Shown here one piece after another: positions 29,486 to 34,597 of a stretch of 35,683 nt of DNA (position 1 is the stretch's first letter; the number at the start of each line of letters is the position of its first letter). A program made the position numbers and the translations under genes. The stretch is from the NCBI RefSeq assembly GCF_002078235.1, contig NZ_MSGP01000291.1:1-35683 (forward strand). The letters are read 5' to 3'. Below the pieces are notes generated by a model. The model worked only from the letters and a program-made list of their open reading frames with translations, did no database searches and was not told the origin of the DNA. Source of the DNA: Streptomyces viridosporus. GTDB lineage: Bacteria > Actinomycetota > Actinomycetes > Streptomycetales > Streptomycetaceae.

Positions 29486-30541
29486 TCAGAGGCTCACGCC
29501 CACCGTCACCGGCTCGTTGACCAGCGTGACGCCGAAGGCCTCGCGCACGCCGGCGACGACCTCGCGGGCGAGCGCCAGCAGGTCCTCGGTGGTCGCGTCA
29601 CCGCGGTTGGTGAGGGCGAGGGTGTGCTTGGTGGAGATGCGGGCCGGACCGTCGCCGTACCCCTTGGTGAAGCCCGCCTTGTCGATCAGCCAGGCCGCGG
29701 AGGTCTTGGTGCGGCCCTCCCCCGCCGGGTACGCGGGAGGCTCGGCGCCGGTGCCCAGGCGCTGCTCCACGCGGGCGCGGAAGGCCGCGAACTCCTCGTC
29801 GGTGAGGATCGGGTTGGTGAAGAAGGAGCCGGCCGACCAGGTGTCGTGGTCCTCGGGGTCCAGGACCATGCCCTTTCCGGCACGGAGCTTCAGGACCGTC
29901 TCGCGGGCCGTGGACAGGGGGACCCGATCGCCCGGCTCGACGCCGAGGGCGCGGGCCGTCTCGGCGTACCGGAGGGGGCCGGAGAGGCCGTCGGCGTCCT
30001 CCAGCGCGAAGCGGACGCGCAGGACGACGTGGCGCTCGGGGTCGGCCTTGAAGCGGCTGTGGCGGTAGGAGAAGGCGCACTGCTCGTTGGTGAGGGTGAC
30101 CGTCTCGCGGGCCCGGCGGTCGTAGGCGACGACCTCGGTGAGGGTGGCGGAGACCTCCTGCCCGTACGCGCCGACGTTCTGGATGGGGGTCGCGCCCGCC
30201 GAGCCGGGGATGCCGGCCAGGCACTCGATGCCGGCCAGTCCCGCCTCCACGGTGCGGGCGACGGCGTCGGTCCACACCTCCCCGGCCGCGAGTTCCAGAC
30301 GCGTGCCGTCCAGGGCGAACCCCCGGGTGGCGATGACGAGTGCCGTGCCGTCGAAGCCCTTGTCGCCGATGACCAGGTTGGAGCCGCCGCCGATGATCAG
30401 CAGGGGCGTGCCGCTGTCGTCGGCCTCGCGGACGACGGCGATCACCTCGTCGTCGGTCGTCGCGGTGACCAGCCGGGTGGCGGGGCCGCCCAGCCGGAAG
30501 GTGGTCAGCGGGGCGAGGGGGGCGTCGTGGAGTTCCTGCAC
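29486..30541 (-). CDS. murB: UDP-N-acetylenolpyruvoylglucosamine reductase
   Basis: 351 residues from GTG 30541. It makes UDP-N-acetylmuramic acid with NADPH and FAD, in peptidoglycan synthesis. FAD-binding motifs LLIIGGGSNLVIGD and ECLAGIPGSAGATPIQNVGAYGQEV, the active-site serine in TWSAGSFFTNP and the C-terminal NEPVTVG are visible. It converges with the deaminase-like gene. The upstream hairpin (30557-30584) ends just 16 bases before the GTG, so murB is either read through from upstream or starts from a short promoter at that point (TAGTCT lies 8 bases before the GTG). Confidence 0.96.
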   Translation of the reverse strand: MQELHDAPLAPLTTFRLGGPATRLVTATTDDEVIAVVREADDSGTPLLIIGGGSNLVIGDKGFDGTALVIATRGFALDGTRLELAAGEVWTDAVARTVEAGLAGIECLAGIPGSAGATPIQNVGAYGQEVSATLTEVVAYDRRARETVTLTNEQCAFSYRHSRFKADPERHVVLRVRFALEDADGLSGPLRYAETARALGVEPGDRVPLSTARETVLKLRAGKGMVLDPEDHDTWSAGSFFTNPILTDEEFAAFRARVEQRLGTGAEPPAYPAGEGRTKTSAAWLIDKAGFTKGYGDGPARISTKHTLALTNRGDATTEDLLALAREVVAGVREAFGVTLVNEPVTVGVSL

Positions 30542-30556
30542 GCGCTCAAGACTAAG

Positions 30557-30584
30557 GCCCCCGCCGGCTGCGGCCGGCGGGGGC
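30557..30584 (-). terminator. Terminator-type hairpin between the barrel protein and murB
   Basis: GCCCCCGCCGGC (30557-30568) and GCCGGCGGGGGC (30573-30584), 12 bp with loop TGCG. On the minus strand it is followed by CTTAGTCTT. It stops the efflux cassette transcript just before murB or acts as an attenuator. Confidence 0.72.
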
Positions 30585-30610
30585 GGTGGGGCTCGTACGC
30601 GCACGTGCGG

Positions 30611-30991
30611 TCAGGTGAGGCGTCGGGCGACCTCGGACCAGTCGACGGGGAGGTCCTCGCTCTTCGCCGTCCAGCGGGCGAACTTCGCGTCCCGCATCTG
30701 CCGGGCGAGGCGCCGGGCCGTCGGTGCGTGCGGGCCGGAGCGGGCGAAGGCGCCGAGGGCCTGCGGGGACTCCCAGGCGGAGAGGGTCCAGAAGGTCCGC
30801 CGCAGCGGCTCTGCCTTCAGGGTCGCCCCGTACGCGCCGGGGGCCCTGCTCACCTGCCACCACACTCCGGGCGTCTTGAAGAAGAACCGCAGGGCTCCCC
30901 AGAGGGTGCGGGTCTCGAAGCGGGAGGCGAAGACGTGCACCTCGGCGTGGGGCGGCGGGGTGTTCGGGACGGTCCAGGGGAGGATCGGCAC
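30611..30991 (-). CDS. Small DUF3291/monooxygenase-fold protein
   Basis: 126 residues from GTG 30991, with GGAAGGAG seven bases upstream. The sequence VPILPWTVPNTPPPHAEVHVFASRFETRTLWGAL, then TLSAWESPQALGAFARSGPHAPTARRLARQM, has the look of the dimeric alpha/beta barrel group that includes antibiotic-biosynthesis-monooxygenase-like and DUF3291 proteins. No cofactor motif is visible, so catalytic function is uncertain. The gene is 50 bases after the MFS transporter in the same direction and is probably the third gene of that transcript. Confidence 0.75.
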   Translation of the reverse strand: MPILPWTVPNTPPPHAEVHVFASRFETRTLWGALRFFFKTPGVWWQVSRAPGAYGATLKAEPLRRTFWTLSAWESPQALGAFARSGPHAPTARRLARQMRDAKFARWTAKSEDLPVDWSEVARRLT

Positions 30992-31041
30992 GACCGGGCT
31001 CCTTCCTTTCGGGCGGGCTGACCGGGATGTCCGGGAGACGT

Positions 31042-32481
31042 TCAGGAGGCGCTTTCCAGAACCGGCTCGGCCGCGCGGGCGGCCGGCGGCCCCTCGGGGC
31101 GGGCGGGCCCGCGGGCCGGTACGAGCAGGACGGCGCATCCCGCGAGGGCGACCGCCGCGGCCCCCGTGACCAGGGCCGGCCGCAGTCCGTCGACGAACGA
31201 CTGGGCGGACGCGTAGCCGCCCCGGGCCGAGAAGATCGACGCCATGATCGCGATGCCGAGGGCGCCGCCCACCTCGCGCAGGGCGTTGTTGGCCCCGGAG
31301 GCGATGCCCTGCTCCTTCGGCCGGACGCTGGACATCACCAGGTTGGAGGCCGGGGCGAAGAACAGGGCCATGCCGACGCCGCTGACGACCAGGGCGGGCA
31401 GCTGGGCGGTGTAGGAGGCTTCGGCGGTCGCCACCCAGGCCAGGTGGCCGAGGCCGAGGGCCTGCAGGAAGAGCCCGGTGGCGACGACCGGACGGCCGCC
31501 GACGCGGTCGGAGAGGAGGCCGGCGATCGGGGCGACGAGCATCGGCATCCCGGTCCAGGGCAGCATCCGCAGGCCGGCCTCGGTGGGCGAGTAGCCGAGC
31601 ACGCCCTGCATGTACTGGCTGAGCAGGAAGATCGAGCCGAACATGCCGAGGAACATCAGCAGGCTCGCCGCGTTGATGCCGGAGAAGGCCCGGGAGCGGA
31701 ACAGCCGCATCGGCAGCATGGGGTTCCTGGCGCGGATGCTGTAGTGGACGAAGCCGACGAGCAGTGCCGTCCCGGCGAGCAGGCCGGTGAGGACGACGGT
31801 GCCGGTCCAGCCGTCGACGGGGCCGCGGACCAGACCGTAGACGATGCCGAACAGGCCGCCGCTGGCGAGCAGGGTGCCGGGCAGGTCGAGCGGGGCTCCG
31901 GTGCCGCGGGACTCGGCGAGGCGCAGGCGCGCGAGCGGGATGAGGAGCAGGCCCAGCGGGACGTTCAGCCAGAAGATCCACTGCCAGGAGATGTGTTCGG
32001 TGAGACTGCCGCCGACGAGTGGTCCGGAGGCCACGGCGAGTCCGTTGACGGCGCCCCAGATGCCGTAGGCCGTCCCGCGCCGCGCCTCGGGCACGGCGGC
32101 CGTCAGCAGGGTGAGGGTGAGGGGCATCATGACCGCGGCTCCGGCGCCCTGGACCGCGCGGGCGGCGATGAGGGAGTCGATGCCGGGTGCCATGGCCGCG
32201 GCGGCGGACGCCCCGGTGAAGACGGCCAGACCGGCGACGAAGAGCCGGCGGCGGCCGAAGCGGTCGCCGAGGGCCGCGCCGAACATCAGCAGGACGGCGA
32301 AGGTGAGCGTGTAGGCGCTCACGGTCCATTCGAGGTCGTGCAGCGCCCCGCCCAGGTCCTCGCGGATGGAGGGCAGGGCGGTGGTGACGACGAGGTTGTC
32401 GAGGGCCGCCATGAATCCGGCGACGCTGGTGATGACGAGTGCCCAGGCGGCCGATCCGCGGCCGGTGGTCTGCTGTGACAT
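31042..32481 (-). CDS. MFS drug efflux transporter, DHA2 (EmrB/QacA) type
   Basis: 479 residues with about 14 membrane segments. The markers are motif D1-like ALDNLVVTTALPSI (about 26-39), motif A GDRFGRRR (about 72-79), the antiporter motif GLAVASGPLVGG (about 149-160), and the loop at 260 (NPMLPMRLFRSRAFS) typical of this family. It probably exports a hydrophobic or cationic compound using protons. The gene follows a TetR gene and a shared operator motif lies 27-46 bases before the start, so it is very likely controlled by that TetR protein. Substrate not known. Confidence 0.94.
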   Translation of the reverse strand: MSQQTTGRGSAAWALVITSVAGFMAALDNLVVTTALPSIREDLGGALHDLEWTVSAYTLTFAVLLMFGAALGDRFGRRRLFVAGLAVFTGASAAAAMAPGIDSLIAARAVQGAGAAVMMPLTLTLLTAAVPEARRGTAYGIWGAVNGLAVASGPLVGGSLTEHISWQWIFWLNVPLGLLLIPLARLRLAESRGTGAPLDLPGTLLASGGLFGIVYGLVRGPVDGWTGTVVLTGLLAGTALLVGFVHYSIRARNPMLPMRLFRSRAFSGINAASLLMFLGMFGSIFLLSQYMQGVLGYSPTEAGLRMLPWTGMPMLVAPIAGLLSDRVGGRPVVATGLFLQALGLGHLAWVATAEASYTAQLPALVVSGVGMALFFAPASNLVMSSVRPKEQGIASGANNALREVGGALGIAIMASIFSARGGYASAQSFVDGLRPALVTGAAAVALAGCAVLLVPARGPARPEGPPAARAAEPVLESAS

Positions 32482-32507
32482 CGCTCCCCCAGGAGATGGT
32501 CCTTTTG

Positions 32508-32527
32508 GTTAGTTATTGATGACTAAC
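32508..32527 (-). promoter_or_regulatory. TetR operator at the MFS gene
   Basis: GTTAGT-N8-ACTAAC (32508-32513 and 32522-32527). The identical half-sites with the same spacer recur at the tetR start, so this is a good candidate for the repressor's site between tetR and the MFS gene, 27-46 bases before the start codon. Confidence 0.75.
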
Positions 32528-32570
32528 TTTTCTGCGCCGAAAAAAGGCGGCCTCACACCGCCCTCGTCCG

Positions 32571-33140
32571 TCACTCCTTCGACGGGCGCTCGGACCGCGC
32601 CGACGGGGAGAGCCCCTCCCAGATGCGGTGCTCCGGCGGGAACCCCATGGCCGCCACACAGTTGATGAGCATCCCGTACGCCATGAAGGTCGTCGTCTCG
32701 CCGACGTCGGCCCCCAGCGCGAGGTGGACGGTGTCCCACAGCCGCAGCCAGCCGGCGCGCACCGACGCGCCGAACTCGTGGTCGCCCTCCTGCTCCGCGG
32801 CCGCCACGGCGAGGTACATCTGCATCTGCATCATCAGCAGTTCGGGCCGTTCCGCGATGGTCCTGGTGTAGGCGTTCGCCATGGCGTGCAGGGCCTCTTC
32901 GCCCTCCAGCCCCTCGGCGGCCTCCGTGAACATGCGGATGATGTCCTGCGAGCAGCGCTCCGCCGCCGCCAGGAAGATGGCCTTCTTGCCCGGGAAGAGC
33001 CGGAAGAGATACGGCTGCGAGACGCCGACCCGCTTCGCGATCGCCTCGGTCGACGTGCCGTGATAGCCGCCGCGCGCGAACTCGGCGGTCGCCGCGCGGA
33101 CGACGCTCTCGCGCCTCTCCTCTGCGCTCATCCTGACCAT
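32571..33140 (-). CDS. TetR-family repressor
   Basis: 189 residues. The N-terminal HTH (RESVVRAATAEFARGGYHGTSTEAIAKRVGVSQPYLFRLFPGKKAIFLAAAERC, about 10-63) is standard. The ligand-binding part is helical with many Met residues (MMQMQMY), likely lining a hydrophobic pocket. ATG 33140 was preferred over ATG 33131 because the -10 box TAACTT ends seven bases before it, so the transcript is predicted to begin at the ATG itself (leaderless). The gene lies just upstream of the MFS gene and has an operator over its own promoter: autoregulation and control of efflux. Confidence 0.95.
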   Translation of the reverse strand: MVRMSAEERRESVVRAATAEFARGGYHGTSTEAIAKRVGVSQPYLFRLFPGKKAIFLAAAERCSQDIIRMFTEAAEGLEGEEALHAMANAYTRTIAERPELLMMQMQMYLAVAAAEQEGDHEFGASVRAGWLRLWDTVHLALGADVGETTTFMAYGMLINCVAAMGFPPEHRIWEGLSPSARSERPSKE

Positions 33141-33146
33141 GCCAGT

Positions 33147-33176
33147 AAGTTAGTACTCAATCACTAACTACGTCAA
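33147..33176 (-). promoter_or_regulatory. tetR promoter and overlapping TetR operator
   Basis: Minus strand TTGACG (33176-33171), 18 bases, TAACTT (33152-33147): a good HrdB-type promoter. GTTAGT-N8-ACTAAC (33149-33168) covers the spacer and the -10. The last -10 base is seven bases before the ATG A, so RNA should start at the codon. Confidence 0.72.
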
Positions 33177-33226
33177 GAAGGATCCCGCTCGCTCCTCGAC
33201 GGGAGGGACGGGCCCGACCGAAAGGT

Positions 33227-33269
33227 GTGAGGGGTGTCCTCCGCCCTGGTGGCGGAGGACACCCCTCAC
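33227..33269 (-). terminator. Terminator after hadB
   Basis: A perfect 19-bp stem GTGAGGGGTGTCCTCCGCC (33227-33245) and its complement (33251-33269), loop CTGGT, 39 bases after hadB. On the plus side it is followed by GTTTCTTCT; the T content is better on that side, so it may serve both directions. Confidence 0.82.
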
Positions 33270-33307
33270 GTTTCTTCTCGTCTTCTCGCGTTCCTTCCGG
33301 CCCCGCG

Positions 33308-33736
33308 TCAGGCCAGTCGTACGACCGCCCGCGACATCCCCAGCACCTTCTGCCCGGCGCTGGTCGCCGTGAGGTCCACGCGGACCGTGTTGTCGTCGAG
33401 CTTGGCCGCGACCTTGCCGCTGACCTCGATGACGGCGCCCTGCTCGTCGTTCGGGACGACGACCGGCCGGGTGAAGCGGACGCCGTACTCCACGACCGCG
33501 CCCGGATCCCCGGTCCAGTCGGTCACCACGCGGATCGCCTCGGCCATGGTGAACATGCCGTGCGCGATGACGTCGGGCAGACCGACCTCCCTGGCGAACT
33601 TCTCGTTCCAGTGGATGGGGTTGAAGTCGCCGGAGGCGCCCGCGTACCGGACGAGGGTCGCCCGGGTCACGGGGAACGTCTGCGCGGGCAGCTCGGTGCC
33701 GACCTCGACGTCGGCGTAGGAGATCTTCGCCGTCAT
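33308..33736 (-). CDS. MaoC-family dehydratase, HadB-like
   Basis: 142 residues from ATG 33736 (GTG 33748, overlapping the hadA stop as GTGA, is an alternative giving 146). The hot-dog fold motif YAGASGDFNPIHWNEKFAREVGLPDVIAHGMFTMA contains the MaoC hydratase Asp and His (D...H). In mycobacteria the HadB homolog is the catalytic half of a (3R)-hydroxyacyl-ACP dehydratase with HadA. Here it overlaps or closely follows hadA, supporting a heterodimer. Streptomyces makes no mycolic acids, so the acyl substrate must be something else; not seen here. Confidence 0.9.
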   Translation of the reverse strand: MTAKISYADVEVGTELPAQTFPVTRATLVRYAGASGDFNPIHWNEKFAREVGLPDVIAHGMFTMAEAIRVVTDWTGDPGAVVEYGVRFTRPVVVPNDEQGAVIEVSGKVAAKLDDNTVRVDLTATSAGQKVLGMSRAVVRLA

Positions 33737-34490: not shown

Positions 34491-34521
34491 GTGAGTGCTC
34501 CTTGACGAACGGATGGACTGT

Positions 34522-34597
34522 TTAACGCAGAAAGAGTAGCCGATCGAAGGACCGACCCCTTAACGCAGAAAGAGTAGCCGATCGAAGGACCGACCCC
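34522..34597. repeat. Perfect 38-bp tandem duplication
   Basis: Unit 34522-34559 is repeated exactly at 34560-34597. Each unit begins TTAACGCAGAAAG and contains AGTAGCCGAT followed by CGAAGGACCGACCCC. It lies in the spacer between tRNA-Met and rpmG. The duplication makes two copies of one hairpin arm. Confidence 0.95.

Follow-up and report, generated by a model that had tools for sequence, protein, structure and literature searches.

The window, as the whole 35,683-nucleotide stretch of Streptomyces viridosporus DNA analysed here is called, carries on its minus strand a gene for a TetR-family repressor (tetR), a gene for a predicted MFS efflux pump and a small gene, in that order and all in tandem. 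The 89 bp between tetR and the MFS gene thus separate tandem rather than divergent genes, which amends the initial annotation. The features on which the argument depends are as follows.

30614 to 30991 plus stop, minus strand: gene for a small ABM-fold (SnoaB-like) protein, possibly in the MFS transcript
31045 to 32481 plus stop, minus strand: DHA2/EmrB-type MFS efflux gene, 479 aa
32484 to 32490, minus strand: Shine-Dalgarno sequence GGGGGAG of the MFS gene
32508 to 32527, no strand: putative operator O2, upstream of the MFS gene, GTTAGTTATTGATGACTAAC
32540 to 32565, minus strand: terminator-like hairpin and T-run (T6) between tetR and the MFS gene
32574 to 33140 plus stop, minus strand: tetR, TetR-family repressor gene, 189 aa, predicted leaderless start at ATG 33140
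33147 to 33152, minus strand: tetR −10 box TAACTT, ending 6 nt before ATG 33140
33149 to 33168, no strand: putative operator O1, between the tetR −35 and −10 boxes and overlapping the −10, GTTAGTACTCAATCACTAAC
33171 to 33176, minus strand: tetR −35 box TTGACG

The TetR protein has an N-terminal helix-turn-helix by Pfam (TetR_N, 51.7 bits against a curated cut-off of 24), and its model is all-helical (pLDDT 88.9) with a TetR fold, matching many TetR-family chains, FasR and SCO7518 among them, at a Foldseek probability of 1.00 (E from 1.7e-4, TM to the query up to 0.71). The MFS protein is assigned to the DHA2 (EmrB/QacA) efflux transporters by TIGR00711, with 298.2 bits for a cut-off of 230.2. 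For the small protein, whose GTG start is our choice, no NCBIfam match was found at E ≤ 0.001 and Pfam gave DUF3291 alone, at 19.3 bits and below the 23.5 cut-off, which leaves it outside the ABM family by sequence; its model (pLDDT 89.9) has the ABM fold, with the SnoaB chains 3kg1_A and 3kg0_C as top PDB matches (E 3.9e-6 and 5.4e-6, TM to target 0.73 and 0.76). A relative of this protein was found at 41 of 80 related loci, in one of them (L012) just 32% identical. A defence system was considered and set aside, there being no PADLOC match among the three proteins.

On the minus strand the tetR promoter reads TTGACG (33176 to 33171), 18 nt, TAACTT (33152 to 33147), 6 nt and the ATG at 33140. 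Comparison was made over 123 distinct upstream regions, a set that leaves out loci below 58% identity to tetR, repeated identical upstream regions, and L001, L002 and L084 to L087, which are copies of the window or other TetR genes; the tetR start was taken as the first start codon met in frame downstream of the −10 box. In 120 of the 123 the start codon follows TAACTT at a distance of 6 nt (86 regions) or 7 nt (34) and is ATG in 117 and GTG in 3, and at least four of six matches to a TTGACA −35 occur at a spacer of 17 or 18 in 115 of 118 scored regions. Over both strands of the window TAACTT stands 6 to 7 nt upstream of a single ATG or GTG triplet out of 1946, namely ATG 33140. A general sigma-70 scan of 30500 to 33400 returned no promoters, and missed that of tetR because TAACTT has only three of six matches to TATAAT; Streptomyces −10 boxes are looser (TANNNT). 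A further, very strong hairpin of 20 pairs lies upstream of tetR (33225 to 33271), terminator-like on the plus strand and perhaps a terminator between neighbouring units.

A Shine-Dalgarno sequence is likewise lacking in the tetR regions. Pairing with the anti-Shine-Dalgarno falls below −5 kcal/mol in 1 of 120 tetR regions versus 115 of 116 MFS regions, and mean energies are −1.8 kcal/mol for tetR, −4.2 for random in-gene stretches and −8.5 for the MFS gene, the last being the best value among several in-frame start candidates and so biased towards strong pairing. The proposal of the initial annotation that the tetR message has no leader is therefore well supported by a fixed −10-to-start spacing and a missing Shine-Dalgarno, and the message (leaderless meaning here a 5' leader of less than about 9-10 nt) most likely starts at or within about one base of the AUG; starting there, it would be translated without a Shine-Dalgarno. 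In 80 of 81 regions the third codon of tetR (33132 to 33134 in the window) is the arginine codon AGG, which is rare in Streptomyces, and ATG is next in 81 of 81. TAACTT is missing from three regions, L118, L120 and L153. L118 and L120 are tetR paralogues (62-64% identical), second copies that have two AAACCGATCGGTTT-type palindromes upstream instead and a nearly unchanged recognition helix; on the same strand no MFS match follows them.

The palindrome GTTAGT-N8-ACTAAC had been noted before the MFS gene and at the tetR promoter, and both occurrences are exact and lie where they were placed, as O2 and O1. At up to two mismatches the window holds three matches where 0.05 are expected, a count reached by none of 100 shuffles; the third, at 34491, has two mismatches and looks like chance. 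The whole-genome search that had been suggested was run over 8,097,217 bases in 986 contigs (99.95% complete), and at up to one mismatch it found O1 and O2 alone, the reversed control pattern occurring at one place.

Details of the site differ somewhat from its first description, which had the same half-sites around different spacers. The half-sites are indeed the same, but the spacers share ATTGA once one site is reverse-complemented, so that on opposite strands five of eight bases agree (nATTGAnn). Over 72 distinct site pairs, drawn from 132, spacer identity averages 4.65 of 8 with one site inverted against 3.32 of 8 in the same orientation, inversion being better in 55 pairs, equal in 9 and worse in 8, and this rules out free, unrelated spacers. 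Of the four half-sites in the window three read GTTAGTNATY and the fourth, on the tetR −10 side, is GTTAGTACTC; half-sites of six bases fall short of the full length, the comparative data giving approximately GTTAGTNATY. Because of the shared spacer bases and these longer half-sites the operator is better written GTTAGTNATYRATNACTAAC, and seems nearer to a 20-bp near-palindrome of approximately that form, with O1 one base off. The extended palindrome at up to two mismatches again finds O1 (at one mismatch) and O2 alone in the genome, the control finding none. A wider regulon was considered and rejected, no further genomic site appearing at up to one mismatch, nor for the extended form at up to two; since there is no third site in the genome, the predicted regulon is the locus itself, exactly O1 and O2.

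Both sites are kept among relatives. In the close loci, which are the best 80 of 335 relatives and all from Streptomyces, taken together with the window, O1 has no mismatch in 76 and one in 5, so that 81 of 81 fall within one; O2 has none in 35, one in 32 and two in 13, so that 80 of 81 fall within two, and the sole failure, L054, is a contig end. In a column profile of 121 tetR and 118 MFS regions the sites are conspicuous against variable flanks. In a sample of 295 Streptomyces genomes the extended site TTAGTNATTGANNACTAA is present in 139, all of which have a tetR orthologue (E ≤ 1e-40, a threshold at which 180 of the 295 qualify), and in none of the 115 genomes without one; the reversed control is zero among the rows listed, and two sites are the most in any row. 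This co-occurrence is partly circular, the pattern having been read from such loci and the genomes sharing ancestry, and therefore its informative part is the absence of the site elsewhere. Of the orthologue-bearing genomes 41 of 180 lack the exact extended pattern, and the loci inspected, from 17 of these 41, all have divergent versions, among them L153, the third of the regions without TAACTT.

Six loci from one genus in another family of the order (L123 to L127 and L129) have an operator about 4 bp shorter, approximately AGTTAGTGACTGCTAACT, which in L124 is identical at both genes (AGTTAGTGACTGCTAACT). Under a rule of five identical outer bases the short site is found at the MFS gene in six of six and at tetR in three of six, the other three tetR sites, which were read by eye, having one outer mismatch. 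In these loci the recognition helix (GVSQPYLFRLF) is unchanged and tetR keeps its leaderless arrangement. The sites of both genes change together, and this is as predicted for one repressor serving two sites. Taken with the conservation at both genes and the occurrence only alongside a tetR orthologue, it lends weight to the original reading of the palindromes as TetR operators, and very probably TetR represses its own gene and the neighbouring efflux pump through two copies of one site, binding and repression being predicted here from sequence.

How the MFS gene is transcribed is seen less directly. Conservation of O2 and of the strong MFS Shine-Dalgarno fits a separate MFS promoter, for which there is no convincing −35 in the window; a candidate −35 box, the TG.cC conserved upstream of O2 in relatives, was dropped, as it is absent from the window. 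The intergenic stretch 32528 to 32572 folds at −19.2 kcal/mol (z −2.08), with 8 of 200 shuffles equally good, and the hairpin at 32540 to 32565 was not reported by the terminator scan. A comparable hairpin and T-run occurs in 55 of 133 loci, and with the window copy missed by the scan a well-conserved tetR-MFS terminator is not established. The hairpin suggests two transcription units in this genome, not generally.

One alternative would make tetR and the MFS gene a single transcript, with O2 as an internal auxiliary site. The tandem order with 89 bp between the genes would suit this, as would a terminator-like hairpin in so few of the loci. The window nevertheless has the hairpin with its T6, 80 of 81 loci preserve O2, beyond which lies a strong Shine-Dalgarno, and L008, which has a small ABM-fold relative soon after tetR, retains O2 although the sequence downstream of tetR gave no MFS match there; a single transcript therefore seems unlikely, and separate units under O1 and O2 are preferred. 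It is still less probable that some other regulator uses the palindromes and that the adjacent TetR acts elsewhere. TetR-type regulators abound in this genome, where the TetR protein (P0001) has 25 further matches at E ≤ 0.001, but the closest of these is 34% identical and over residues 3 to 91 only, the operator occurs nowhere else in the genome, the sites among the 295 genomes are confined to those with a tetR orthologue, and in another family the two sites have changed in concert. Set against these observations, a separate regulator is very improbable, and the adjacent TetR is retained as the protein that would bind O1 and O2.

The leaderless start has its own competitor, in which tetR would begin at the in-frame ATG 33131, giving a 9-nt leader, or would have a longer leader from a farther promoter. 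In its favour all 81 tabulated regions have ATG as the fourth codon, with AGG before it in 80, the general promoter scan missed the proposed promoter, and the distant relatives L128 and L133 have TAACTT well upstream and a purine-rich Shine-Dalgarno, GGAAGGAGG, before the start instead, an exchange that also counts for the leaderless reading of the others. An AGG directly against an ATG is, however, too close to function as a Shine-Dalgarno, and the first codon is ATG or GTG (117 and 3 of 120) at a fixed 6 to 7 nt from the −10 box. Further, L119 and L121 have codons inserted just after the ATG with the promoter-to-ATG distance kept, an insertion that displaces the second ATG, leaves the first in place and therefore argues against the 33131 start. 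A leadered tetR is thus improbable, and a start at ATG 33140 is preferred.

Overall we consider it likely, with a probability of about 0.85, that the locus is a local switch in which a TetR repressor acts on its own gene and, through a second promoter, on a DHA2 pump often accompanied by a small monooxygenase-fold protein. TetR at O1 would cover the core promoter of tetR and so limit its own synthesis, and TetR at O2 would block the second promoter, from which the pump would be expressed together with any small monooxygenase-fold protein that the locus encodes; two transcription units, as suggested by the terminator-like hairpin, would explain the need for a second operator. A small molecule, probably a substrate of the pump, would release TetR from O1 and O2, whereupon strong synthesis of the pump would follow, and of the ABM-fold protein at loci that encode one. 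The tetR message would be translated without a Shine-Dalgarno and probably weakly, the pump having a strong one. The ABM fold of the modelled small protein hints at an aromatic polyketide or quinone as the ligand.

It is conceivable, although we hold it to be rather doubtful, that the leaderless state has itself been selected, with the operator filling the core promoter, the start codon placed at the transcription start and repressor output kept low, an arrangement that would be held across Streptomyces and one genus of a second family. The operator being 4 bp shorter there at both genes with the same recognition helix, half-site geometry would have changed with the reading of the DNA kept.

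Classical tetR is divergent from the MFS gene tetA, with shared operators. The tetR of Tn1721 is likewise a TetR-type repressor gene with a leaderless mRNA (here predicted), of low translation (Baumeister 1991, as cited in passages of PMC4681348 and PMC3017554), and the present genes differ in their tandem order, in having an operator apiece and in the sequence of the site. In the Rhodobacter sphaeroides acuR-acuI-dddL operon 5' RACE places the start of the acuR mRNA, leaderless and again for a TetR-family repressor, precisely on its AUG, and acuR is less well translated than the genes that follow it, according to excerpts of PMC3017554; that operon is catabolic, acrylate-induced and one transcript, whereas the present locus is an efflux cassette with two operators. 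Leaderless mRNAs arise from 21.0% of primary transcription start sites in S. coelicolor, with AUG preferred, and many are for transcriptional regulation, particularly TetR family regulators (excerpts of PMC4895711), which tetR here resembles as far as its sequence predicts.

ActR/ActA and SCO3367/SCO3366 are examples of TetR-family repressors of adjoining MFS pumps acting through palindromes, both pairs divergent in contrast to the tandem cassette here, and among 372 TetR-family regulators 67% are divergent and 15% likely co-transcribed with a neighbour (parts of PMC3511530). A tandem pair with one operator per gene is thus less usual and not new in kind. No operator in the table excerpted from that paper matches O1 or O2, the nearest, of SGR6912, being ACTAA-N4-TTAGT with half-sites in opposite order. 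Literature searches by operator sequence, context and gene numbers gave no dedicated paper on the cassette or operator among the matches listed. The cassette is real, well conserved and ordinary; the operator is newly defined and the kind of system already known.

An efflux cassette that is widespread in Streptomyces thereby gains a defined operator and a local regulon of two sites, and it provides a clean comparative example in which a repressor gene predicted to be leaderless adjoins a strongly translated gene for a pump. The cassette would help in assigning the pump substrate, and its relatives form a natural series in which the effect of leaderless starts on repressor levels could be tested. 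SCO4640 and SCO4641 of S. coelicolor are presumably the orthologues of tetR and the MFS gene. In a table excerpted from PMC3897704 SCO4640 (TetR) and SCO4641 (transmembrane efflux) are both lowered in the first value column, at −4.3 and −2.5, with −0.2 and −0.5 in the next column, and SCO4640 is a row in tables of regulators in parts of PMC3610822 and PMC4848846.

Elsewhere in the window a 38-bp unit is tandemly duplicated with 87% identity at 34511 to 34586, near two tRNA genes and just upstream of a small minus-strand gene, which we take to be rpmG.
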